Source: Litoditis marina (Eukaryota > Nematoda > Chromadorea > Rhabditida > Rhabditidae). Taken from it: DNA of 64,000 bases. Of this stretch, positions 347-54,600 are shown piece by piece (the stretch's first letter is position 1; each line of letters begins with the position of its first letter). Below the pieces are notes generated by a model, which did not search any database, was not told the DNA's origin, and was given only the letters and a program-made list of their open reading frames with translations. The stretch covers positions 3,410,001 through 3,474,000 of the forward strand of contig OZ038435.1 in assembly GCA_964036275.1 (NCBI GenBank), written 5' to 3'. A program made the translations under genes and the position numbers.

Positions 347-3300
347 GTGTCGTTCGAAGATGATAGCAGTTGTTGGGCGATAATGAGCCGGATCATTCTG
401 ATGCAGGCTGGCATAATGGCCGGACCATTCTATGAATATTTCCCGGACCATATGAAGGAATACAACTATGACGTCATCGAGAGGGCATTGGCCAGCAGTC
501 CAGAATGGGGAATCTACCCTCTTCAGTTGGCAGCTATCTACGAGTATGTTCATACGTCAGTAATTACGTCCGAGTAGGCGCGAAAGTTCGAAAATATGTT
601 ATTTTTTATTAAGATTGTGGAAATTAGACGACTCTTGATGGAAAAGTATGGTGTTTCACGTTTTTGAATCGGAAAACGGGTTACATTCTGTAGAATAGTC
701 GCACCTTACTGTAGTAAGATTGGAAAAGTATTGTTCCGGTCATTCCCACTGAGACCCGGCAACGTGCCAACAAAATTTCCAGGCTGCATTTCACCATGTT
801 AATGTTTTCCAAAACTCTTTAAAAAAATCCGCTCGGAGAGACGATTGAATGAGCATGTTGAACTCATATTCTTATAGTTACGCTGTGCGAACTGACCTGC
901 GCTCTCGTTCTGCCTGTCTGAATATATTCGAACGATTCTTCCCCCTCAAGGACATATTGGCTACGGTTCGTTTATTTGTTTTTGTTATTTGGACTCCAAG
1001 CCACTGTATCATCTATCTATTCTATGAGGGGCGGAGTATGGGGGCAGTCTTTCTGATCAACACACTCTCACGTACTGGAAGTTATCAACGACCGCTCGCT
1101 CAGCATCGTTCAATCGATTCAACCTCTCGTTGTCTTTGTCGCGGAAATTAACACGATATATCTGTGTTCGAAGATAAAATCTATATTACAGTATAATGAC
1201 ATTATACTGTAATATAGATTTTATCTTCGAACACAGATATATCGTGTTAATTTGGCAGTCGGCCTTGAATTCGAATTAGTTGCGACCAGACACTGTTGGT
1301 TATTGTGTGTTTTTATTCCAGGTCCGTCATGCTCTCTCGGAAGCGACTGTGGATAAACCAGTCTGCGTGGTGATGGAGTCCGAAGTCAAAGAGTCGGTTG
1401 ATTCATCCTTCCTACAGTATTTTCTAGAATACTCAAATACTGGTGGAAGTAGTGTGAACGTGTGTAACCTGTAAAAGAAGTATGGTACTCACAGTGTATG
1501 GGTCAGCGCCACTTACCGACAGTGTATGGTTCAGCGCCACTTATTGGGAGTATTTTAGTTAAGCTCGGAGCTCGTTCTACCACCGCAGGCGCCAGCTATC
1601 TGGATACTTGACGAATGAATGGTATAGTTCGCACCATTCCTACTGAGGCTCCTACACTTTTTCTTATTACAATTGTGTAATTTAAACGCTACCAAAAATT
1701 CGTATTCCCACTTTAGGAGTCTTAGTGGGAATGAAATAGACTATAGCATTAGGTGCAAACGCTCTCACTCATGACTGATTTCCGAGGGCACGTTCTTTCA
1801 TCTGACAGCACTTGCTACACTGGTGACCTAGAACACATTGCCTGTGAGTGCACAGATCACACTCATATGCCAGTAAAGTCTGACTATTAGACAGAAAATA
1901 AGTCCGTTTGGGGATTTAAATACACGAATCTTTAGAGGTATGCAAGAAATATAAACCAGTTTTCCTAATTTTGGTGAAAAGATTCGGTAGTTTTTTTTCA
2001 ACTACTGGGATAAAAGTACTGGTGTGAGATCAAACTACAACGCATATTCGGTGTTTCGGTCATGATATAGATATAGATTGGAAATATTACAGGTATACAT
2101 CGGGAAAACGTACGGCGACAGCAGAACAACTCGAGGAGTTGCAGAAGTGGACGAATGACACTAGGCCGCAGACCGTGACAGTACAGAAAGAAGGTCCATT
2201 CGAGGTGGATTATTTTCTTCGTTCTCTATCTGTTTTTATATTCATATTCTATTCATTCAAACGCAAATCTTGACCCAAGATTAAACATGAAGACACACTA
2301 CATGCAAAAATAACGCGTCGAATAGAATGGAACCCCTTTGCTAGAAGCAACAGGCTCTCGCCCCACATGAGCCGGGCACGCATGAGATTTGAGGATTTGA
2401 GCTGGCAATAAAGCTCACTCATGCCTATCCATGTCCTCTACGGAGAGTCCTTCTACGGTTGATATTATGTAGTTTTAATTGATTCTAAATGAAAAATGAA
2501 TATTTTTTCACTATATACGATAACCAAATAAATGATTATAATAGAAGTTATTGGTGGTAGGATTTTCATTGAACATTTTCTTGTATATTCAGAAATGTTT
2601 ACTGAGTAGTAAGTTATTTGTTGTTCGGTCAGTTTAGTGAAATGTTTTTTCACGTTACAGGTGCTGAGCGAATGTCCCTATTCCCATAAGTTCCATTCTG
2701 CTTCATCGGGAGAGGGTGGGGTGGGTCGGGCCTTCTACACGGCAGTTCGGAAGGAATATCGTCTACTCAGGGAACACATCCCCGAGGGAATACTCGTGCG
2801 AGCATACGAGGACAGGTACGTCAACTAGTGTCCCCGTTCCCATAAGTTCCATTCTGCTTCATCGGGAGAGGGTGGGGTGGGTCGGGCCTTCTACACGGCA
2901 GTTCGGAAGGAACATCGTATACTCAGGGAACACATCCCCGAGGGAATACACGTGCGAGCATACGAGGACAGGTACGTCAACTAGTGTCCCCGTTCCCATA
3001 AGTTCCATTCTTTTCATCGGGAGAGGGTGGGTGGGTCGGGCCTTCTACACGGCAGTTCGGAAAGAACATCGCCTACTCAGGGAACACATCCCCGAGGGAA
3101 TACACGTGCGAGCATACGAGGACAGGTACGTCGACTAGTGTCCCCGTTCCCATAAGTTCCATTCTGTTTCATCGGGAGAGGGTGGGGTGGGTCGGGCCTT
3201 CTACACGGCAGTTCGGAAGGAACATCGTCTACTCAGGGAACACATGCCTGAGGGAATACACATGCGAGCATACGAGGACAGGTACGTCAACTAGTGTCCC

Positions 3301-6300
3301 CGTTCCCATAAGTTCCATTCTGTTTCATCGGGAGAGGGTGGGGTGGGTCGGGCCTTCTACACGGCAGTTCGGAAGGAACATCGTCTACTCAGGGAACACA
3401 TCCCCGAGGGAATACACGTGCGAGCATACGAGGACAGGTACGTCAACTAGTGTCCCCGTTCCCATAAGTTCCATTCTGCTTCATCGGGAGAGGGTGGGGT
3501 GGGTCGGGCCTTCTACACGGCAGTTCGGAAGGAACATCGTATACTCAGGGAACACATCCCCGAGGGAATACACGTGCGAGCATACGAGGACAGGTACGTC
3601 AACTAGTGTCCCCGTTCCCATAAGTTCCATTCTGTTTCATCGGGAGAGGGTGGGGTGGGTCGGGCCTTCTACACGGCAGTTCGGAAGGAACATCGTCTAC
3701 TCAGGGAACACATGCCCGAGGGAATACACGTGCGAGCATACGAGGACAGGTACGTCAACTAGTGTCCCCGTTCCCATAAGTTCCATTCTGTTTCATCGGG
3801 AGAGGGTGGGGTGGGTCGGGCCTTCTACACGGCAGTTCGGAAGGAACATCGTCTACTCAGGGAACACATGCCCGAGGGAATACACGTGCGAGCATACGAG
3901 GACAGGTACGTCAACTAGTGTCCCCGTTCCCATAAGTTCCATTCTGTTTCATCGGGAGAGGGTGGGGTGGGTCGGGCCTTCTACACGGCAGTTCGGAAGG
4001 AACATCGTCTACTCAGGGAACACATGCCTGAGGGAATACACATGCGAGCATACGAGGACAGGTACGTCAACTAGTGTCCCCGTTCCCATAAGTTCCATTC
4101 TGTTTCATCGGGAGAGGGTGGGGTGGGTCGGGCCTTCTACACGGCAGTTCGGAAGGAACATCGTCTACTCAGGGAACACATGCCCGAGGGAATACACGTG
4201 CGAGCATACGAGGACAGGTACGTCAACTAGTGTTCCCGTTCCCATAAGTTCCATTCTGCTTCATCGGGAGAGGGTGGGGTGGGTCGGGCCTTCTACACGG
4301 CAGTTGGAAGGAACATCGTCTACTCAGGGAACACATGCCCGAGGGAATACACGTGCGAGCATACGAGGACAGGTACGTCAACTAGTGTCCCCGTTCCCAT
4401 AAGTTCCATTCTGCTTCATCGGGAGAGGGTGGGGTGGGTCGGGCCTTCTACACGGCAGTTCGGAAGGAGCATCGTCTACTCAGGGAACACATGCCCGAGG
4501 GAATACACGTGCGAGCATACGAGGACAGGTACGTCAACTAGTGTCCCCGTTCCCATAAGTTCCATTCTGCTTCATCGGGAGAGGGTGGGGTGGGTCGGGC
4601 CTTCTACACGGCAGTTCGGAAGGAACATCGTCTACTCAGGGAACACATGCCCGAGGGAATACACGTGCGAGCATACGAGGACAGGTACGTCAACTAGTGT
4701 CCCCGTTCCCATAAGTTCCATTCTGCTTCATCGGGAGAGGGTGGGGTGGGTCGGGCCTTCTACACGGCAGTTCGGAAGGAACATCGTCTACTCAGGGAAC
4801 ACATCCCCGAGGGAATACACGTGCGAGCATACGAGGACAGGTACGTCAACTAGTGTCCCCGTTCCCATAAGTTTCATTCTGTTTCATCGGGAGAGGGTGG
4901 GGTGGGTCGGGCCTTCTACACGGCAGTTCGGAAGGAACATCGTCTACTCAGGGAACACATCCCCGAGGGAATACACGTGCGAGCATACGAGGACAGATAC
5001 GTCAACTAGTGTCCCCGTTCCCATAAGTTCCATTCTGCTTCATCGGGAGAGGGTGGGGTGGGTCGGGCCTTCTACACGGCAGTTCGGAAGGAACATCGTC
5101 TACTCAGGGAACACATGCCTGAGGGAATACACATGCGAGCATACGAGGACAGGTACGTCAACTAGTGTCCCCGTTCCCATAAGTTCCATTCTGTTTCATC
5201 GGGAGAGGGTGGGGTGGGTCGGGCCTTCTACACGGCAGTTCGGAAGGAACATCGTCTACTCAGGGAACACATCCCCGAGAGAATACACGTGCGAGCATAC
5301 GAGGACAGGTACGTCAACTAGTGTCCCCGTTCCCATAAGTTCCATTCTGTTTCATCGGGAGAGGGTGGGGTGGGTCGGGCCTTCTACACGGCAGTTCGGA
5401 AGGAACATCGTCTACTCAGGAAACACATCCGCGAGGGAATACACGTGCGAGCATACGAGGACAGGTACGTCAACTAGTGTCCCCGTTCCCATAAGTTCCA
5501 TTCTGTTTCATCGGGAGAGGGTGGGTGGGTCGGGCCTTCTACACGGCAGTTCGGAAGGAACATCGCCTACTCAGGGAACACATCCCCGAGGGAATACACG
5601 TGCGAGCATACGAGGACAGGTACGTCGACTAGTGTCCTCGTTCCCATAAGTTCCATTCTGTTTCATCGGGAGAGGGTGGGGTGGGTCGGGCCTTCTACAC
5701 GGCAGTTCGGAAGGAACATCGTCTACTCAGGGAACACATCCCCGAGGGAATTCACGTGCGAGCATACGAGGACAGGTACGTCAACTAGTGTCCCCGTTCC
5801 CATAAGTTCCATTCTGCTTCATCGGGAGAGGGTGGGGTGGGTCGGGCCTTCTACACGGCAGTTCGGAAGGAACATCGTCTACTCAGGGAACACATGCCCG
5901 AGGGAATACACGTGCGAGCATACGAGGACAGGTACGTCAACTAGTGTCCCCGTTCCCATAAGTTCCATTCTGCTTCATCGGGAGAGGGTGGGGTGGGTCG
6001 GGCCTTCTACACGGCAGTTCGGAAGGAGCATCGTCTACTCAGGGAACACATGCCCGAGGGAATACACGTGCGAGCATACGAGGACAGGTACGTCAACTAG
6101 TGTCCCCGTTCCCATAAGTTCCATTCTGTTTCATCGGGAGAGGGTGGGGTGGGTCGGGCCTTCTACACGGCAGTTCGGAAGGAACATCGTCTACTCAGGG
6201 AACACATGCCCGAGGGAATACACGTGCGAGCATACGAGGACAGGTACGTCAACTAGTGTCCCCGTTCCCATACGTTCCATTCTGTTTCATCGGGAGAGGG

Positions 6301-9300
6301 TGGGGTGGGTCGGGCCTTCTACACGGCAGTTCGGAAGGAACATCGTCTACTCAGGGAACACATGCCCGAGGGAATACACGTGCGAGCATACGAGGACAGG
6401 TACGTCAACTAGTGTCCCCGTTCCCATAAGTTCCATTCTGTTTCATCGGGAGAGGGTGGGGTGGGTCGGGCCTTCTACACGGCAGTTCGGAAGGAACATC
6501 GTCTACTCAGGGAACACATGCCCGAGGGAATACACATGCGAGCATACGAGGACAGGTACGTCAACTAGTGTCCCCGTTCCCATAAGTTCCATTCTGTTTC
6601 ATCGGGAGAGGGTGGGGTGGGTCGGGCCTTCTACACGGCAGTTCGGAAGGAACATCGTCTACTCAGGGAACACATGCCCGAGGGAATACACGTGCGAGCA
6701 TACGAGGACAGGTACGTCAACTAGTGTCCCCGTTCCCATAAGTTCCATTCTGTTTCATCGGGAGAGGGTGGGGTGGGTCGGGCCTTCTACACGGCAGTTC
6801 GGAAGGAACATCGTCTACTCAGGGAACACATGCCCGAGGGAATACACGTGCGAGCATACGAGGACAGGTACGTCAACTAGTGTCCCCGTTCCCATAAGTT
6901 CCATTCTGCTTCATCGGGAGAGGGTGGGGTGGGTCGGGCCTTCTACACGGCAGTTCGGAAGGAACATCGTCTACTCAGGGAACACATGCCCGAGGGAATA
7001 CACGTGCGAGCATACGAGGACAGGTACGTCAACTAGTGTCCCCGTTCCCATAAGTTCCATTCTGCTTCATCGGGAGAGGGTGGGGTGGGTCGGGCCTTCT
7101 ACACGGCAGTTCGGAAGGAGCATCGTCTACTCAGGGAACACATGCCCGAGGGAATACACGTGCGAGCATACGAGGACAGGTACGTCAACTAGTGTCCCCG
7201 TTCCCATAAGTTCCATTCTGCTTCATCGGGAGAGGGTGGGGTGGGTCGGGCCTTCTACACGGCAGTTCGGAAGGAGCATCGTCTACTCAGGGAACACATG
7301 CCCGAGGGAATACACGTGCGAGCATACGAGGACAGGTACGTCAACTAGTGTCCCCGTTCCCATAAGTTCCATTCTGTTTCATCGGGAGAGGGTGGGGTGG
7401 GTCGGGCCTTCTACACGGCAGTTCGGAAGGAACATCGTCTACTCAGGGAACACATGCCCGAGGGAATACACGTGCGAGCATACGAGGACAGGTACGTCAA
7501 CTAGTGTCCCCGTTCCCATAAGTTCCATTCTGTTTCATCGGGAGAGGGTGGGGTGGGTCGGGCCTTCTACACGGCAGTTCGGAAGGAACATCGTCTACTC
7601 AGGGAACACATGCCCGAGGGAATACACGTGCGAGCATACGAGGACAGGTACGTCAACTAGTGTCCCCGTTCCCATAAGTTCCATTCTGTTTCATCGGGAG
7701 AGGGTGGGGTGGGTCGGGCCTTCTACACGGCAGTTCGGAAGGAACATCGTCTACTCAGGGAACACATGCCCGAGGGAATACACGTGCGAGCATACGAGGA
7801 CAGGTACGTCAACTAGTGTCCCCGTTCCCATAAGTTCCATTCTGTTTCATCGGGAGAGGGTGGGGTGGGTCGGGCCTTCTACACGGCAGTTCGGAAGGAA
7901 CATCGTCTACTCAGGGAACACATGCCCGAGGGAATACACGTGCGAGCATACGAGGACAGGTACGTCAACTAGTGTCCCCGTTCCCATAAGTTCCATTCTG
8001 CTTCATCGGGAGAGGGTGGGGTGGGTCGGGCCTTCTACACGGCAGTTCGGAAGGAACATCGTCTACTCAGGGAACACATGCCCGAGGGAATACACGTGCG
8101 AGCATACGAGGACAGGTACGTCAACTAGTGTCCCCGTTCCCATAAGTTCCATTCTGCTTCATCGGGAGAGGGTGGGGTGGGTCGGGCCTTCTACACGGCA
8201 GTTCGGAAGGAGCATCGTCTACTCAGGGAACACATGCCCGAGGGAATACACGTGCGAGCATACGAGGACAGGTACGTCAACTAGTGTCCCCGTTCCCATA
8301 AGTTCCATTCTGCTTCATCGGGAGAGGGTGGGGTGGGTCGGGCCTTCTACACGGCAGTTCGGAAGGAGCATCGTCTACTCAGGGAACACATGCCCGAGGG
8401 AATACACGTGCGAGCATACGAGGACAGGTACGTCAACTAGTGTCCCCGTTCCCATAAGTTCCATTCTGTTTCATCGGGAGAGGGTGGGGTGGGTCGGGCC
8501 TTCTACACGGCAGTTCGGAAGGAACATCGTCTACTCAGGGAACACATGCCCGAGGGAATACACGTGCGAGCATACGAGGACAGGTACGTCAACTAGTGTC
8601 CCCGTTCCCATAAGTTCCATTCTGCTTCATCGGGAGAGGGTGGGGTGGGTCGGGCCTTCTACACGGCAGTTCGGAAGGAGCATCGTCTACTCAGGGAACA
8701 CATGCCCGAGGGAATACACGTGCGAGCATACGAGGACAGGTACGTCAACTAGTGTCCCCGTTCCCATAAGTTCCATTCTGTTTCATCGGGAGAGGGTGGG
8801 GTGGGTCGGGCCTTCTACACGGCAGTTCGGAAGGAACATCGTCTACTCAGGGAACACATGCCCGAGGGAATACACGTGCGAGCATACGAGGACAGGTACG
8901 TCAACTAGTGTCCCCGTTCCCATAAGTTCCATTCTGTTTCATCGGGAGAGGGTGGGGTGGGTCGGGCCTTCTACACGGCAGTTCGGAAGGAACATCGTCT
9001 ACTCAGGGAACACATGCCCGAGGGAATACACGTGCGAGCATACGAGGACAGGTACGTCAACTAGTGTCCCCGTTCCCATAAGTTCCATTCTGTTTCATCG
9101 GGAGAGGGTGGGGTGGGTCGGGCCTTCTACACGGCAGTTCGGAAGGAACATCGTCTACTCAGGGAACACATGCCCGAGGGAATACACGTGCGAGCATACG
9201 AGGACAGGTACGTCAACTAGTGTCCCCGTTCCCATAAGTTCCATTCTGTTTCATCGGGAGAGGGTGGGGTGGGTCGGGCCTTCTACACGGCAGTTCGGAA

Positions 9301-12300
9301 GGAACATCGTCTACTCAGGGAACACATGCCCGAGGGAATACACGTGCGAGCATACGAGGACAGGTACGTCAACTAGTGTCCCCGTTCCCATAAGTTCCAT
9401 TCTGCTTCATCGGGAGAGGGTGGGGTGGGTCGGGCCTTCTACACGGCAGTTCGGAAGGAACATCGTCTACTCAGGGAACACATGCCCGAGGGAATACACG
9501 TGCGAGCATACGAGGACAGGTACGTCAACTAGTGTCCCCGTTCCCATAAGTTCCATTCTGCTTCATCGGGAGAGGGTGGGGTGGGTCGGGCCTTCTACAC
9601 GGCAGTTCGGAAGGAGCATCGTCTACTCAGGGAACACATGCCCGAGGGAATACACGTGCGAGCATACGAGGACAGGTACGTCAACTAGTGTCCCCGTTCC
9701 CATAAGTTCCATTCTGCTTCATCGGGAGAGGGTGGGGTGGGTCGGGCCTTCTACACGGCAGTTCGGAAGGAGCATCGTCTACTCAGGGAACACATGCCCG
9801 AGGGAATACACGTGCGAGCATACGAGGACAGGTACGTCAACTAGTGTCCCCGTTCCCATAAGTTCCATTCTGCTTCATCGGGAGAGGGTGGGGTGGGTCG
9901 GGCCTTCTACACGGCAGTTCGGAAGGAGCATCGTCTACTCAGGGAACACATGCCCGAGGGAATACACGTGCGAGCATACGAGGACAGGTACGTCAACTAG
10001 TGTCCCCGTTCCCATAAGTTCCATTCTGCTTCATCGGGAGAGGGTGGGGTGGGTCGGGCCTTCTACACGGCAGTTCGGAAGGAACATCGTCTACTCAGGG
10101 AACACATGCCCGAGGGAATACACGTGCGAGCATACGAGGACAGGTACGTCAACTAGTGTCCCTGTTCCCATAAGTTCCATTCTGTTTCATCGGGAGAGGG
10201 TGGGGTGGGTCGGGCCTTCTACACGGCAGTTCGGAAGGAACATCGTCTACTCAGGGAACACATCCCCGAGGGAATTCACGTGCGAGCATACGATGACAGC
10301 TACATCTCCTTATTGGGTATCATTCATCGTAAAGACACCTTCTTCGTCACTGGTTCACACGTGATTATAGACGAACTTATGATAACTGTGGGGAACCTTG
10401 TTAAAGAAGGGGCATTATGTGATTATGTCTCATCAAAACGGGATTGTCAGTCCTGTAAAGGGTTCATGCAGGCTTGCCATTGTTTTCGAGGCCATCGGAT
10501 ATCCTTTCTCTGAAACAGGCTTAGTCATAAATTTGTAACTTGACACGCCCTTTTAATCAATCTTTCGTTTCCAGGACCGATTGTCTATCGTTTCTCATCA
10601 TCGGTCCGACAGGAACCCCGTACGAAGGCGTGCCGTTCATGTTCGATGTCAAGTTGCCGGAAACGTATCCGGAAAAACCACCAGAGGTGCGGTTAGCAAT
10701 AATAACATAATTATTCAGAGTTTAAGTTCCCAGTGGTGTATTCTTGTCGTTTTCTGCAAAGCGTTAGTTGTGGTTCGATAGGTCATAGATAACAGAAGTT
10801 TGTATTTGAATTTTATGTCAAAATGCACTGAAAATGTTTTTTTCTGCATACCTGACCAGAGAAGAATGCCGCATTCCGAAGAGAAACGAAAAAATCTAAA
10901 GTGATCGCTAGGATGTTGTCAGTCGTTTGATAAGGATACTGCTTCACATATCACACAAATTTCAGGTTCACTACGTTTCGTACTCCGCAGAACAGTTAAA
11001 CCCGAATTTGTACCTCTGTGGCAAGGTGTGCACCAGCTTGCTTGGAACATGGAGTGGAGAGGTAACTGAGAGCTATTTTTTGATGACCTTTATGACTGGT
11101 GTTAGCTGTAAACATTTCTTTCCACAACATGTTTCCTCGCATCTAGCTATGAGATTGGGTGAGAGGGAGAGAGATCAAAGGGAAATAATTGTGTAATGTT
11201 TCATGATTACATCACACTAGAACTGTTCTGGTTCTCACTGGAAGAATAGTACTTTGCGCTCGTTCCTCAAATATTTGATCCATTCGCCGGTTGTAAGTGG
11301 GTAGGTCCGGTCCCTGAAATACGCATGGATATTGTGGTCGATTCAGCAGCCCCCTTCAGGTATTATTGGTGTGCAAGGGTAATATCTATCTACTACTATC
11401 TATATGATTACAAATTTGGCAAACATCGGAGCTGTGTTTTATAGGGTGTGGAAACATGGAACGCGAAGAACTCCAATCTACTTCAAGTAATTCTGTCTAT
11501 CCAAGGTACGGCTTGACTTTTACAGCTGTTTATAGCTAAAACGTTGAAATGTGTTTTTTTTGTTTCTGGATAATTCTTCTACTTTCTGCGATAATTTGAT
11601 ATATTCTGTCGATAATTATAATATAAACCTTCTCAGCCCTGATTCTGGTGCGGGAGCCGTACTTCAATGAGGCCGGCTACGAGTCGCGCAAAGATCTGCC
11701 CGAATCTGGTCCCAACTCGAAGCGATACAACGAAACGGCTGCAGTCAACGCATTGGAATACCTCTGGAAGGTGGGTGGAACGTGGAGGATAGACAGAACC
11801 AGATGTTTATGTTTGTTAAAGATAAGATTGGGTTCACTACACTCAAAAACTGAAACTTTGAAAATGGAGTCAGACGAACAATTCTGGGGTATAACTAAAT
11901 GAATTAGTAATGTCAACGATGAATAAATCCAGATATCCTTCTTTTTATCATGGCACCATTTCGATATTTGTTGTGTTTCATACGTTTTACATGACTGGAG
12001 CTATAACTGTGGCATTGCCTTCAATTGGTAATACTGGTTCCAGGTGATCGGAGCGGATATATTCCCGTTCTCGGATGTTATTCACAAACACGTGGTCTGC
12101 ACGTGGTCTGGGTGAGGTTTATTTTATTACTACCTGGACAAAGTAAGGTCTGACTGTTCGACAAAACTGAGTCCGTTTAAAGATTGGAACACGTGTAAAT
12201 TAATGAATTTTTATCAAAAATCTACAAATTCTTCCGTTTTCGGAGATAAGGTAGTTCGTTTTCCTGCTAATTCTGACTCTTCCGACAAGTTTAAAGGGGT

Positions 12301-30100: not shown

Positions 30101-33100
30101 GTTTGAGGTTATCTTCATCACCTGCTCTTTATCTCTCCTCTCTCTATCTGCCTCACTCTATCACTCTCTCGTACTCTCTCCCTCTGAAGTTTGCCCGCTC
30201 TCTTTTCCTACCTTTTACATTTTTCAATAGATACGTTTGTTTCCAGATATGTAGCGGGGGTCCCCGTATGCATCAATTCCTGGACAGTTCGAGCAGCACC
30301 AGCAACACAGGTCGGGCCTTCCACGCGGCCCTTCGCAAGGAACATCGCCTTTTAAGGGACCATCTCCCGGAGGGAATCTACGTACGATCATACGAAGACC
30401 GGTACACCCTTTCTTCTTGTATGTTCCCGCTCGCTCCAGCTTGTTTTCGGAATATCCTGGCACCTAGATGGCTAGTTTCCATCCTGTGTCTCTCGTTCTG
30501 CACACTATTTCGTCTGTTTGAGAAGACAGAGGTTGAGTTCTAAGAGTAGTTGTAGTTCTGAATACGACCTCTGCCGAATGAACCACTATGAAACTCCGAG
30601 TGCTTATTCCTGTATTTGCTTTTAAAACAATGTTTCATGTTTCAGAACTGATCTATTTGCATTCCTGATCATCGGTCCGACTGGAACCCCGTACGAGGGT
30701 GTGCCGTTCTTCTTCGACGTTCGCTTGCCACCGGATACGTATCCCGAAAAACCGCCACAGGTACGCACCAAATAGGGCGGCTTTGTTGAATGGTTCATTG
30801 ATTCACCAATTTTTCTTCAAGATCGGGGTTTCAATCTACCCCAATTTCAATAATTGTCGAACTTTACTGTTGAAAACCTAAGTTTAAGACCAGTTTTCAG
30901 CTCAGTCATTCAGACGAAACTCCTGATTTTCATTAAATTTTTGTGCACAACAAAGTCTCCTGATGTATGGTGCGCACTGCAAGATACAACTCGGTGTATC
31001 AGTTTTTTAGCGAGCTGTCGGCGAGGTGATGGCAGAATGCCAGCAACCTCGCGTTCTATGAATATGTACTGGAAACGGAATAGTCACGTGTAACATGGAG
31101 GAAAGTTCTAGTTTCTAGTTTGCGATTCCTTAAATGTCTCTTTTCAAGGTGGTCTACATTCCGTACTCTGCAGAAAAGTTGAACCCGAATCTGTACCCTT
31201 GTGGAAAGGTGTGCACCAGCTTGCTCGGAACGTGGAATGGAGAGGTATGTTCATTAATTAATATTAAAAAATTTGTTAATTAATATATCCCTTCGAAACT
31301 AAAAACACTTGTTAAATATTTAGTGTTTCACTTCGCGTCGTTTCGATGCGGTGATGTGATCATCATACATATCACATTATTGTCAAAACATCTTTCTGTG
31401 CAGTAGTGGTACAGTTGATTGCTCATGGTGGACATTCGTATGTTCTGAGAAATGCATTCCGGTTGGAAATACTTGTTACAAATAAGTCGGTGCATATTCA
31501 ATGGTACTCTTTCCCCTCACCACCAATCTCCCCAATCATGTTGCCACGTCTAACAATGTGAAAAGTTGCGCGCTCATTCGTGAATAAACTATTATATAGT
31601 TAGAAGATGCACATTCATAATTGGAAAGTGTTTCAGGGCGTGGAAACGTGGAATCCGAAGGACTCGAATCTGTTCCAAGTAATATTATCTATTCAAGGTA
31701 CCGTATTTGTATTTTCCTTTATTTCTCCTTGATGTCTCGCGACGAGATCTCTGCGTCTCTCACTGTCTCGCTTGTAGATTGGTTTGATCAGAAAACCATT
31801 GGCTGACCTGATCAAACTACAAGCAAGAGAGTGAGAGACACAGAGATACCGTCGCGAGACTACTTAATTCCACCATCGGGCCAGGGTGTCACTTTTGTCT
31901 GACTGAGGTTGTTCTTTATCTACATCATGGTTCCACCTCAATTTCTCGATTCTATTCCAGCCCTGATCCTGGTGCGGGAGCCATACTTCAACGAGGCCGG
32001 CTACGAGTCGCGCAAAGATCTGCCCGAATCTGGTCCCAACTCGAAGCGATACAACGAAACGGCTGCAGTCAACGCATTGGAATACCTCTGGAAGGTAGCA
32101 AATTGACAATTTAACCTACCGGAAATCAACCGAATTCGCAGTTTACTGTAGCTGATTGGACAGCTACACTTTTTGTGTTGCATAGGAGTAACAGGCGCAA
32201 TGATCGAGGTGATGCATGGGTGATTGTTGGATTATCGATGGATTGTAGACAATGTACTTTAAACTGTTGAATATAGTTCATCAATAGGTGAATCAAGTGC
32301 TTGTTTAGTATTGTGTTCCATATTTTCAGGTGGTCAGGAAGCCACCGCCGCCCTTTGAGGATATCATCAAACAGCACATAATCTCCATCTGGCCTAAGTG
32401 AGTTCTAAGTTGGTTCGGTTCATATTTCAAACCAAATAAGGTGAAAAGCCAGTAAAATCGCACCTATTCCACACGTGGGAAAGGAAGGTTTTCTGTCCAA
32501 ACTTCAAAATAGGTATTCTAATTCTTTTAAAGAATATTAGGACTGTATCTGTGTGTTGGCCACTCATACATAGTACTAGACCGAGTTAGGTGTTCAATTG
32601 ACTATGAGAATTGTGTTGTATATGTGAGCGACTGAATTTGAGCAGTTTCCCTGTAGATTGAGTTTTTTTTTCAGCCTCCGCGAGAAGTTGCTTCGCCTTT
32701 CGAAAGATGAGAATTCGATGCCCGACTATCCCGTATTCGGCTCCAAGGGATTCCGACTGGCAATAGAAAAGGTGGGTGCTTGTTCAATTGCCCTCCCAGA
32801 TACTTCCCATTCAATTGGTCAGCCTTTTTTGTAGCCGCCTCGACGAGAGAATGTGCAGGCGGGAGAGGGCATGACGAATTCCCACATGTTAATTATTCAT
32901 TGCTGATAGTTTATATCGATTATTTGCACATCAAAAAACATGTGCCCCAAGTCGGGCCACACAGATCGTGTAGTAAATTTCAAACTCTTCATTAAATTTG
33001 TATTTCTCAGCGAAAACTAACACTATGGAAGTGTATGTCGCGTTTATTTTGAGGTTTGCTAATTCTCCTTTTGAAGGCTGTACACCGTATCGATGGCTGT

Positions 33101-42665: not shown

Positions 42666-45600
42666 GGAGGTCGATTAGCCCTCTCCGGCCTGCACATTCT
42701 ATTGTCGAAGCTGCTACAAAAAGGCTGATCAATTGAATAGGAAGTATCTGGCCAATTGAACAAGCACCCACCTTTTCTATTGCCAGTCGGAATCCCTTGG
42801 AGCCGATCACGGGATAGTCGGGCATCGAATTCTCATTTTTCGAGAGGCGAAGCAACTTCTCGCGGAGGCTGCAAAATAACTATTCACAGGGAAACTGTTC
42901 AAACCCTCGAACAGAACTGTTCTAGCCGAGTAATGTGGTTTCGAAGTATTGCACGTGAATAAGCTCCCAAGGACCCAGGTGTCTATAACAATAATTATAT
43001 CAACATTTTGTTCTGCACTTCTTCAGTCTCTCATAACGCGAAGGAGGAACATAAATCGATTGAATCGCATATCCCAGTAAGGTCCGACAATTCAAATGGT
43101 TTTACTGATCAAAATTCGTCAATAGGTATATTTTACACAGATACATTTTTTTCCGGCTATTATCTGAAGTTTCCACAATATAAACGAAACCAACGTGAAA
43201 CTGACTCTGGCCAGATGGAGACTACATGCTGTTTGATGATATTCTCAAAGGGCGGCGGTGGTTCCTTGATCACCTGTAACATCGAATAACATATTAAACA
43301 GAGTTTATTCACCTATTACTTAAATATAGTTCAAAACATATTGTCTACAAACAATTATTGTTCAATAATTCGATAGCCCAACAATCACTTATATATATAA
43401 CATCCATCTTTTCGCATACTAGCCTTTTCTGAACAGAAAATGTAATTATTGAGTAAAATTAACCGTCTGCAACCCCACCAATCAGCTACAGTAAACTGCG
43501 AATTCGGTTGATTTCCGGTAGCGGTAGGTTACAGTGTCAATTTGCTACCTTCCAAAGGTATTCCAATGCGTTGACTGCCGCCGTTTCGTTGTATCGCTTC
43601 GAGTTGGGACCAGATTCGGGCAGATCTTTGCGTGACTCGTAGCCGGCCTCGTTGAAGTACGGCTCCCGCACCAGGATCAGGGCTGGAATAGACTGGGATT
43701 AGAAAGAGGACCAATATCGAGACATATCCCCATCATGTAATTAAAGAAAAACCTCAGTCAAACAAAAGTGATTGTCTGGCACGAAAAAGTGGTGAAATTA
43801 GGTAGTCTATCGCGACGAGATCTCTCACTCTCTCGCGTGTAGTTTGGTCAGGTCAGCCAATGGTTGTCTGATATATCCAAACTACAAGCGAGAGATTGAG
43901 AGACGCAGAGGTTTCTTCGCGAGACAGCTGACAAAAATGCAAACACGGCACCTTGAATAGATAGGATCACTTGGAACAGATTAGAGCCCTTCGGATTCCA
44001 CGTTTCCACGCCCTAAAAAACGTTTTATTTAAATATTCCTTTTCCAAATGAACAGTAGTTCATCCGTCATCCAACATGCGACTTTTTACATTGTTGAGTT
44101 TGCTCCTCAATTGGGGTAATGTAAAGAAAAGACTATCATTGAATGTTCTCATATTTGTTATAGTAATGCTTTTTCTTTCTAAATTGTTGTGAAACAGATA
44201 TGTTAATTCTCCCAAGTAATATTCGACTTACCTCTCCACTCCACGTTCCGAGCAAGCTGGTGCACACCTTGCCACAAGTGTACAGATTCGGGTTCAACTG
44301 TTCTGCGGAATACGGAATGTAGACCACCTTGAAAAAAGATCTATCTGATGGGAAATGGAGGACATTTCCAGAAAAATGATAATACGCCAAAAATCGTTGA
44401 AGACCGTATAGTGTAGTGCGTACCTGTGGCGGTTTTTCGGGATACGTGTCCGGTGGCAAGCGAACGTCGAAAAAGAACGGCACACCCTCGTATGGAGTTC
44501 CAGTCGGACCGATGATCAGAAATGAAAATAGATCAGTTCTGGAAAAACGCTGATTCATTTAAGTGGTGGTGTGAGGAAACACAATAACTCCGTAGGAGAG
44601 GGGGGGGACAATGTTGATACCAATGTCTTGTCGAATATGAAAATTTCCGTATGCAGCACTATCACGTCTGATAGAACCTGGGAACATTGACTTTCTGAAT
44701 TTATATTACGTTCGGGGAATTGTAGTTATCACCACCGGGGGTAATAATTCAATTTATCATCTGTAATACGAAACTTTAAAGGTGGGGTAAAAAGTAAACA
44801 TTTTGGTATTGAAGTGCAGACCCCCACTCGTTGAAGTTTGACCGCCCCCCCCCCCCTCCCCGCATTGAATTTTCTGAACCTGCGCTCTCTCAAACCGACA
44901 GTATTCCCCCTCTCTCACATCCGGCCGGGGTACTAGTGTGGCGAAATGTTGAGCAAAACGAGAGACGCAGGATGGGATCTAGGTGTCGCAATATTCCAGA
45001 AAAGAAACAACGTACTGGTCTTCGTATGATCGTACGTAGATTCCCTCCGGGAGATGGTCCCTTAAAAGGCGATGTTCCTTGCGAAGGGCCGCGTGGAAGG
45101 CCCGACCTGTATCGCAGCGCATAGTCGTCCTATTGTCACAGAAGTGATGGAGGCGCGGATAACCGCTACATATCTGAAAACAAAAGTATCTATCGCCAAA
45201 TGTGAAGGGGAAAAGAAAGCGGGTAAAATCCAGAAGGAGAGATCACGAGAGAGTGAGGCAGAGAAAGAGAGAGATGAGAAGAGAGGGAAACCTCAAACTT
45301 CTTCGGCTGACTGGTTGTTTCGGTTGATGTGTCACCGGTCCACTTCTTCAATTCCTTGATTTGTTCCACTGTTGCACTCTGTTCGCCCGATGTATACCTT
45401 TAAAAACAGTGATACAAGCGATTCTACATTCTAGGAAGACTTTTCATCTTTCAAGAAACGAAATAAGGACAAATAGGACCACTTCGATCACCGAATGGAG
45501 GCTAATTATGTAAATAAGCGGAGAGCGATAAGTCTGATGTCGACATTGTACAATCTTCTGATTACGGAGAAGGTGAGGAAGTTTGGGAGATAATTCCATG

Positions 45601-51600: not shown

Positions 51601-54600
51601 CCAAAGTGAATAGTCGTTATTATTCCTTTTCTTTACGGACTTCGAGATGGTTCAATATGCTGTCTTCACATAGTTCAATAATTTTGAAAGCGAAGTCCTC
51701 GAAAGTATTCAAGAAACGTCTACTAGAAACTGATCTATGTAAGGTTCTAAAACTGCCTTGTAAGTTTTAATTAGTAATCTGATGTAGCTCATTTTTTTTA
51801 TTTAGCAACTTGGTAAGTTTGGTAAGTTCCCATCCTGTGACTGGTGCGGAATGCAGTCCATGGTTCATAATCGGTCCCAGTGTGAAAACCAGTGAGAAAG
51901 AAGAATCAACAAGTTGACAAAATCTCCGTACTGCTCACTTTCGCAAAGTGGTCATACGTGCATGCATCGATACTCTCTTCTTTTAGTATTATCGATGTCT
52001 TTTTCTTCTAGATTTGTTTAATATATTATGATAGTTAAACGAACGAACATTGACTTTAATTTATTGTTAGTATTACTAGGAGTATGATATTATCCACCAA
52101 TCCGCTGGGAAAAGTAAAGACTAAAATTATATATCAGGTCTGAGGGAAGTTAGGAGGAGGTAGTAACCACGAACATATATTGGCTCTGATAAACTTAGGT
52201 GGAGGTAGAAACTATAAATATATATCAACTCTGAGAAACTTAGGTGGTGGTAGTAACTACAAATATATATCAACTCTGAGAAACCTAGGTGGTGGTAGTA
52301 ACTACAAATATATATCAACTCTGAGAAACTTAGGTGGTGGTAGTAACTACAAACATATATCAACTCTGAGAAACTTAGGTGGTGGTAGTAACTACAAATA
52401 TCTGTCAACTCTGAGAAACTTAGGCGGTGGTAGTAACTACAAACATATATCAGCACTAAGAAAGTTAGGGGAAGGTAGTGTTATTTTAATCATTCCCAGT
52501 GAAGACATCCCTTTTTTAATCAACAAATATATGCTGTCTCGAAATACAGCCCAGCGGTTGTGGTATTGATACGGTAGTTAAGTCAGAGCATTTGTCAGAA
52601 CAGTCGCTTTAGTATAGAATGTATACAATATTATTACATCTTTTTTCACCTATGTTCTTTTCACCATTCTCTTTTTTGGCAACCTTTCGCGTTTCAAACT
52701 TTCGTTCCGTTATTACACACTGTGTAATAAATATTTGATTTGAATAATCAATTGTCAACCCACCATCACATCATCGCGAGTCATCTGTTCCCAGGCGGAC
52801 CGAGAATGGTACTCGACAACTTTCTGAAAAAGAATAGTTCATCCAATAATGAGAATTTCATAACTTACCCAATTTCACAACACCAAAAAGGGCAAAGTCC
52901 TCCCTCAACGTAGTATGATTTTTCGTCCACTGGTAGCATATAGCGTCCCCCAGTGACTTTGAACTAAAAGTTGAATATGGCTCGGTATTCCTAATCTGGG
53001 TATCGCGAAATGAGAAAAGTTAAAGACGCTCAGCTGTGCGGGTCTATGCGCTCACTTATAACGTAAGAGAGAACAGCAGTGACGACCGGCGTTCTATTCT
53101 GAAGTTCAATCCCAGGATGAAATTCGGGGAAACAATTGCACTGTGTTTACGGTTGTCACCCGTATAGCTGCAGATTTGCCATTATTTTCTTAATAATTCA
53201 AATAAGCGCACCTTTCCATTCATTTCACACCTTCTTTAACCTAAACCTCATCCACATATTTTATCTTCTACAACACCTACCTCTCCGAGTATCTGCTCAA
53301 GCTCGTTCATCGTTTTGGGCTTTTCATCTCCAAACAACTCGCATTTCTGCAAAATTATAGCAGCGTTAAATTGTTATTGCCAGCAGAAAATAGGTGAAAT
53401 CTTTAGAGCAAAAACTTGCGCGCCTTATTGTTCCGACTGTCCATAAAAGACCACATTGTCATGAATAGCTTGTGCGTGACATGATCATCCATGTCGTTGA
53501 ACCATCTGGGATACTTCCTCGTCAGGACATGCCTAGATAAAAACATATAAATGAAACTTCAAAAAAAAAATCACGAAGATTGAACCTTGACCACAAACAC
53601 TCTATTAGGCAGGTTTTTGTATACAAACCCTTCATCCACAAATCGAAAAATAACCAGCGTTATTCGGCAACAAGTTTACCGAACCCGTAGTATGAAGAGG
53701 GTGAACATGTGCTGCTGCTCTGGTACACGTGACGTACACTTACACACGTATTTTCGCACACAACCAACAATGCATGGGTACTTTTTTCAAAACTCACATC
53801 TCGTGCAGTACGAGAACCTTAAACAATGTTTACTCATGATATGATTGAACGAGCGACTGTTCAATGAGATAATTTCTTCGAGTCTTCGTGGACTGAACAG
53901 CGCCTAACAATTTCGAAGAATAAATGTAGAAGTCTTTGAAACCCACACTCTATAGCAGAACTTCACCATATCCTCTTTTCCTTCTTCTTTCACCTCTTTG
54001 AACTAAAAAAAGGTCATCTGTATTCAAGGAGATAATAATGGCATTCTAGAATATTAGGCGCAATCGATTAAACGAGCGAATGTTAATTGTGTAAATTGCA
54101 TTTTTTTTTAAACAAGTCAGAATTCAACGTCACCTTACATAACTAACACAGATTCTATGTGGCTTGATGAACCATTACCAGCCATCGACAAATTTAAATA
54201 TAGTTGAATGCGAATAGTTCAACTTTTCCAAAATCTTATCTATCTGGAGTGAAGTTCACCGAATTGTCAGAAAAAAAAATAGAAAACGGCTTCCTTCTCT
54301 GCAAAAAAATTGCCAACTTTGATATTTTCAGACCCATGCCTACGATTTGAGATGCCTGAATCGAAAAATGGGTTTATTTTTGTGGAACAGTTTTCACAGT
54401 ATATCTCTCACCAACCTTATCATCAATCCATTCACTCAAGAAATCGGACAAGCCAGTGTCCGATATATACTCTCTGCGCAGGTACCACGTGCGAACCGGG
54501 TCGCGTCGGTGCCTGTACTCGTGCAAATAGCCAGCAAACTCCAGGGCGTCACGTAGCAGAGCATTGTTCTGCGAAATGAATTGCTCGTCGTAACTAACAG

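Follow-up and report, generated by a model that had tools for sequence, protein, structure and literature searches.

Introduction

Minisatellites are made of head-to-tail units with block repeats, to which G-quadruplex minisatellites such as CEB1 add a G-rich motif, and the part of the CEB1 report drawn on here describes a G-quadruplex (G4) minisatellite that raises rearrangement rates in yeast in a manner dependent on its G4 motif (PMC3486850). Here we describe arrays that share these features in UBE2O-like genes of the nematode Litoditis marina (assembly GCA_964036275.1, 262 Mb in 522 contigs), starting from a window of 64,000 nucleotides (nt) on contig OZ038435.1 (hereafter C3; C3:3410001-3474000) in which most of one exon of a UBC-domain gene, gene B, is present with its donor as 49 tandem units. 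The unit differs from those of the minisatellites described in that source in being coding sequence together with its own 5′ splice site, and in that the first unit is the working exon.

Other systems come close in one respect or another, as far as the portions of the reports cited here describe them. Intron gain by tandem genomic duplication likewise involves an exonic duplication bearing AG|GT, the surplus of which is spliced away (PMC3443670); there the duplicated AGGT supplies donor and acceptor of a new intron, whereas here an existing intron, present also in paralogs C and D with a single exon copy, is lengthened by donor-only copies. Mutually exclusive tandem exons also repeat a single exon inside a gene (PMC9013439), but they are alternatives of which one is included each time, and each comes with both a 3′ and a 5′ splice site; the units described here lack a convincing acceptor, and 65 of the 67 gapless units carry a stop after the donor. 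In the Y-linked duplicated exons of Drosophila (PMC8794474), subsets of exons are repeated at a working gene, as exon groups and often at the gene periphery, while our unit is smaller than an exon and straddles a single exon-intron border. CeRep25B and other intronic minisatellites of Caenorhabditis elegans (PMC4039745) are similar as nematode intronic minisatellites near splicing decisions; CeRep25B is a 24-base repeat found in many genes, and an exon origin goes unmentioned in the portion of that report considered. UBE2O itself, an E3-independent E2 enzyme (PDB), has the same UBC domain; in this genome we found six paralogous UBE2O loci (A-D on C3 and two on a second contig, C4), and exon arrays occur at three of them. 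Judging from titles and the starts of abstracts in the open-licence literature, we recognised no description of such an exon-plus-donor array.

We consider it probable that the arrays are near-neutral minisatellites that arose from exons, are shielded by a splice donor and, between paralogs, have evolved in concert. A coding piece seems to have turned into a repeat array able to grow while the protein remains unchanged. What goes beyond the initial annotation of the window is a second array in a paralog, the exchange between the two arrays, a G4 motif in their units and an independent exon-plus-donor array in a third gene.

Repeat arrays of coding exon and splice donor

Array B is a real and unusual structure. 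Tandem Repeats Finder reports it with a period of 156, 48.9 copies, 98% matches and a score of 14709, far above chance, and cutting at a common point yields 49 units whose 48 spacings are 156 bp in 45 cases, 155 bp in two and 154 bp in one. Both procedures agree with the initial annotation, which had proposed that a single UBC-domain exon was amplified to about 49 tandem copies of 156 bp; the array it described is genuine and does not stand alone, as a second array of the same exon lies outside the window. This array A consists of 21 units, spaced at 156 bp throughout (C3:3384332-3387600), in paralog A about 28 kb upstream. The unit of array B comprises the last 143 of the 155 nt of exon e5, followed by the donor and intron start gtacgtcaactag. 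The claim that every unit has a 5′ splice site holds for most and fails for B15 and B49, which have lost the GT retained by 68 of the 70 units of the two arrays. Among the best candidates scored in a DNA search with two units, arrays A and B were the two places found, both on C3.

Both arrays have the character of minisatellites, with head-to-tail units that are kept alike as by slippage or unequal exchange. In array B, units B30-B37 recur exactly as B39-B46, and in array A no exactly recurring block of at least three distinct units was found. Changes relative to the consensus number 9 in A21 and 10 in B49 (about half in the flank), 6 in B01 and 4 in A01, and two internal units have 6. The divergence of the end units was considered as a sign of unequal exchange and set aside as weak evidence, in view of the flank changes and of the internal units with 6 changes.

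Synonymous divergence (dS) between genes A and B is 0.81 in exons e1-e4 and 0.87 in e6-e8, as against 0.08 in e5; over all eight flanking exons it is 0.65, a value pulled down by e9 (0.07). Units were compared across the 66 internal copies, with the four end units excluded. Their mean divergence is 1.9% within A, 1.4% within B and 2.1% between the arrays; no fixed difference was found at any of the 156 positions, four positions (21, 29, 90 and 91) are polymorphic in both arrays for the same letters, two unit sequences are identical in A and B, and 15 of the 66 units have their nearest unit in the opposite array. Private variants also exist (153G in A alone, 108G in B alone). Since fixed differences are absent and two units are shared, at genes whose flanking exons stand at a dS of about 0.8, arrays A and B, on this sequence evidence, exchange sequence and are thereby kept alike. 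In this part of the two genes the introns give no alignment at an expectation value (E) of 1e-10, save for a few bases beside the exons. The exchange would thus be limited to a single exon with its array, in neighbouring genes that have otherwise diverged, a pattern that fits non-allelic crossover or conversion.

A third array involves a different exon. At one of the two C4 loci (L045:284-1107 = C4:5810284-5811107), the exon preceding e1 forms six 139-bp units, each made of the exon body and gtgagtatagtcag, with the acceptor excluded from the unit (splice sites read by eye). The first copy is one base off the other five (L versus V), and unit 4 has two further changes. This exon is single-copy in A, B, C and D and was not found at the second C4 locus, and a DNA search with the 139-bp unit returned this place alone among the best candidates scored. 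The 139-bp array is independent of arrays A and B and has the same exon-plus-donor layout. That two different exons of one family share this layout suggests a filter rather than a special function. Dispersed satellite DNA, with its unit at many places in the genome, was rejected as a description, the 156-bp unit occurring at two places and the 139-bp unit at one among the candidates scored.

In arrays A and B, a G4 motif is present on the coding strand of every one of the 70 units, with four runs of at least three G and loops of 1-7 per unit, as in G4 minisatellites; the 139-bp units do not. In about 191 kb of other sampled DNA, scanned on both strands, there are 10 G4 motifs, of which six are wholly or almost wholly runs of G. 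Exon e5 of C, D and the two C4 loci has no G4 motif, and its maximum G4Hunter scores are 0.40, 0.44, 1.12 and 1.12, compared with 2.04 for the unit. To go by this correlation, the motif may perhaps have helped the arrays to grow.

Gene B and the splice signals of its units

The joined translation of e5-e9 of gene B has its best PDB match in UBE2O (E 1.9e-52; best BIRC6 match 3.8e-34) and matches Pfam UQ_con (E 2.8e-21). Its UBC domain, which is nearer to UBE2O than to other E2 enzymes, aligns with UBE2O (PDB) over 180 residues and includes the motif GKVC(T/V)SLLGTW. We take the cysteine of this motif to be the active site. The exon ends of genes A-D were set by eye from alignments; in exons e1-e9 of the four genes all 36 acceptors are AG, all 36 donors are GT, and the joined frames are open (Table 1). 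In gene B, joining e1-e9 via the first copy of e5 gives an open frame of 342 codons. The proposal of the initial annotation that position 2815 joins 10575 across a 7.8-kb intron is matched by the exon coordinates, which give 7,759 nt and an open UBC frame. The corresponding intron measures 3,974 nt in A, 244 nt in C and 477 nt in D, and e5 is single-copy in four paralogs, namely C, D and both C4 loci.

Table 1 Features of the window, with positions counted from its first nucleotide
Feature	Position	Strand	Evidence
Array B, 49 units of about 156 bp (143 nt of exon e5 + 13 nt of intron start)	2673..10303	+	Tandem Repeats Finder, unit cutting
Exon e1, gene B	347..543	+	paralog alignment, joined frame
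Exon e2, gene B	878..965	+	paralog alignment, joined frame
Exon e3, gene B	1322..1392	+	paralog alignment, joined frame
Exon e4, gene B	2093..2204	+	paralog alignment, joined frame
Exon e5, gene B (155 nt); last 143 nt = unit B01	2661..2815	+	paralog alignment, joined frame
G-quadruplex motif of the first unit	2708..2730	+	motif scan
Putative e5-e6 intron, gene B, 7,759 nt (7,484 nt between the ends of the B01 and B49 exon parts)	2816..10574	+	sequence
Exon part of the last unit, B49; CT replaces the donor GT right after it	10157..10299	+	unit cutting, flank reading
Exon e6, gene B, putative splice partner of e5	10575..10686	+	paralog alignment, joined frame
Exon e7, gene B, with cysteine motif GKVCTSLLGTW	10966..11061	+	paralog alignment, joined frame
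Exon e8, gene B	11445..11505	+	paralog alignment, joined frame
Exon e9, gene B	11637..11770	+	paralog alignment, joined frame
Single-copy exon e5, paralog C	30247..30401	+	paralog alignment, joined frame
Single-copy exon e5, paralog D	45016..45173	-	paralog alignment, joined frame

Splice sites were scored with a weight matrix built from the sites of genes A-D, with e5 left out. The donor CAGGTACGT, present in 67 of the 70 units, scores 10.5, which equals the maximum among the 36 donors of A-D (e5 of A and B included), and one further unit has the donor CGGGTACGT with a score of 9.6. The consensus unit contains 11 AGs scoring from -9.8 to -0.4, whereas the four true e5 acceptors have scores between 10.0 and 12.1; the best of the 11 is the donor's own AG and the second (-0.8) lies within the exon. 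For the 36 real acceptors, each scored with its own exon class excluded, the median is 6.7, the fourth-lowest score -0.4 and the lowest -4.2; the median of 459 intronic decoy AGs is -3.5. The units thus appear to have no convincing acceptor, by a matrix that separates the e5 acceptors well and is not absolute.

An in-frame TAG follows just after the donor in all gapless units other than the last ones, A21 and B49 (the count leaves out three units of array B with insertions or deletions), so that a transcript spliced from a later donor would meet a stop within five codons past the first donor. We saw no sign that later donors are hidden by RNA structure in the four later intact donors for which folding was predicted: the unpaired probability is 0.51-0.53 for B02, B10, B25 and B40 and 0.53 for the first donor. 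We infer that pairing of the first donor with the true acceptor is the productive choice. Of the three outcomes envisaged by the initial annotation, clean removal of the intron seems to fit best, given the open 342-codon frame, the constrained e6-e8 and the acceptor-poor units.

Within the 66 internal units, distinct changes amount to 10 synonymous ones in 34.7 sites and 15 non-synonymous ones in 106.3 sites, with four more that fall in the final exon bases or the intronic portion; one of the variants is a nonsense change, present in two A units. We read this informally as weak or no constraint on the units.

Origin and maintenance of the arrays

The reading of the arrays as near-neutral minisatellites shielded by a donor can be put as a sequence of steps. 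A stretch reaching from just inside e5 to 13 nt past the 5′ splice site would have been duplicated head to tail in a tandem UBE2O pair, perhaps at AGTG microhomology; in array A, AGTG stands at the start of the exon, at the junction between units and in the right flank alike, as expected for duplication by microhomology. Growth may have followed by slippage or unequal exchange, to which the block repeats of array B point. As each unit would bring a donor and no convincing acceptor, splicing would run from the first donor to the single true acceptor and remove the later copies with the intron. The extra copies would then be invisible to the protein and hence free to multiply; exchange, as the divergence shows, has kept the A and B arrays alike. 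The filter would lie in where a repeat is seeded: one that crosses a donor can survive, because everything past the first donor is intron. Coding sequence might in this manner be amplified dozens-fold inside a gene that seems to work, and yet stay out of the protein, as long as the repeat starts in the exon and includes the donor. One prediction is that donor-crossing repeats should outnumber acceptor-crossing ones. The arrays also offer a natural test bed for how the spliceosome chooses the first among dozens of near-identical 5′ splice sites.

Several observations weigh against this reading or parts of it. The right flank of array B lacks AGTG. As regards the G4 motif, 11 of 1,222 tiles of other DNA match the unit in G-richness, the e5-e6 intron of D contains a G-run G4 motif (44861, - strand) with no array beside it, and a canonical G4 is absent from the 139-bp array, whose G4Hunter maximum is 1.44. 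The acceptor matrix is built on 36 sites from four related genes, and up to 3 of the 36 score below the unit's best AG. The retention of donors in 68 of 70 units can also be read as selection, the units being too alike to tell. Finally, another six pieces of 10 kb, two of them upstream at the C4 loci and the rest distributed across C3 and C4, contain several arrays with units of 130-170 bp, none of which was recognised by eye as exonic; such unit lengths are thus common in this DNA. Array growth is therefore not peculiar to exons, and the idea that all long-period arrays of the region are exonic was dropped on the same grounds.

A more far-reaching version, which we hold to be unlikely, is that donor-crossing seeds are a general and recurrent route by which coding exons become growing intronic arrays in this genome, and that the number of unit donors per allele forms a length-variable 5′ splice-site ladder tuning the amount of productive UBE2O mRNA. 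Its ground is that two different exons of one gene family are affected, at three of six paralogous loci.

The alternative that survives best, improbable as we judge it, takes the later donors to be partly used, with a stop right after unit 1, so that the number of units acts as a rheostat on productive UBE2O mRNA. The initial annotation had described an intron full of decoy donors, and the 68 intact donors with near-identical scores bear out that description; the TAG after nearly every gapless donor and the equal accessibility of the four later donors in predicted folds are also what a rheostat would have. Homogenisation, however, keeps the units near-identical, so intact donors need no selection, and B15 and B49 have lost theirs.

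Silencing of genes A and B by their arrays, with both becoming pseudogenes, appears very improbable. It could draw on the growth of the introns beyond the lengths seen in C and D and on the state of B01, which differs from the array consensus, common variants excluded, by three amino acids (R to Y, H to Y, H to L). The H at the latter two positions is kept in both C4 loci and in proteins P0001, P0002 and P0005 (motifs KEH and IHV), with P0003 differing, which suggests that the arrays hold older residues than the working exon of B; the differences also imply that B01 has not been overwritten by its own array. Yet the e1-e9 frames are open in both genes, and the ratio of non-synonymous to synonymous divergence (dN/dS) in e6-e8 is low, at 0.05 for A-B, 0.11 for A-C and 0.13 for B-C, which argues against decay of A or B. 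The idea that the first copy is silenced by mis-splicing, another outcome raised in the initial annotation, is not indicated by these sequences.

We give still less credence to alternative or mutually exclusive exons, whereby a varying unit would be chosen as e5 and diversify the protein. Each unit does encode almost the whole exon in the normal frame, and a few residues differ among units, but the copies do not each have a convincing 3′ and a 5′ splice site of their own. With no unit AG scoring near the true e5 acceptors, a gap of 13 nt between a donor and the next exon copy, and variants that are few and mostly common to homogenised blocks, this possibility was rejected for want of a convincing acceptor in the unit. 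An assembly artefact or wrong copy number, to which near-identical repeats are prone, is the least credible explanation of all, given two arrays of unlike length with private variants (153G, 108G) and unrelated flanks in a 34.9-Mb contig, and a third array of another exon.

Paralogs and further observations

The four UBE2O paralogs on C3 are neighbours: A precedes the window, B lies at its start, and C (+ strand) and D (- strand) follow further on. The three best of 49 database matches to gene C all come from nematodes, as would fit a nematode genome: Haemonchus placei (59% identical over 77% of the query), Cylicostephanus goldi (55% over 79%) and Mesorhabditis spiculigera (53% over 90%).

Rfam and tRNA scans of the window returned nothing. 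A shifted frame of 1,562 amino acids is open over units B20-B49; as a whole protein it exceeds the Pfam cut-offs for Lustrin_cystein (115.6 bits) and DUF4333 (68.8 bits). It was rejected as a real protein, as no single stretch passes Pfam and the scores are sums of repeated weak matches; a sister shifted frame of 406 amino acids has no relative at E 0.001. A long open shifted frame is unremarkable here because the 156-bp unit keeps the frame.

Exon e9 (window positions 11637-11770, 31961-32094 and 43549-43682) encodes the same protein stretch in A-D with nearly the same DNA (dS 0.07-0.27), and its neighbours have diverged further, which could reflect conversion or constraint on synonymous sites. 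A perfect inverted repeat, its 54-nt arms separated by a single nucleotide, lies at 1145-1253 in the e2-e3 intron of gene B. In the stretch of gene D, a 45-bp repeat is present in 7.8 copies (52120-52469), with one + strand frame open across it. Among the sampled 10-kb pieces and loci, L052:5635-7703 holds about 2 kb of ~168-bp repeats, apparently in both orientations, and tandem repeats of ~140 bp with GGCGCCGGGCGC occur at L050:2049-2463, L051:1681-2041 and L009:6278-6544, perhaps as members of a dispersed family.

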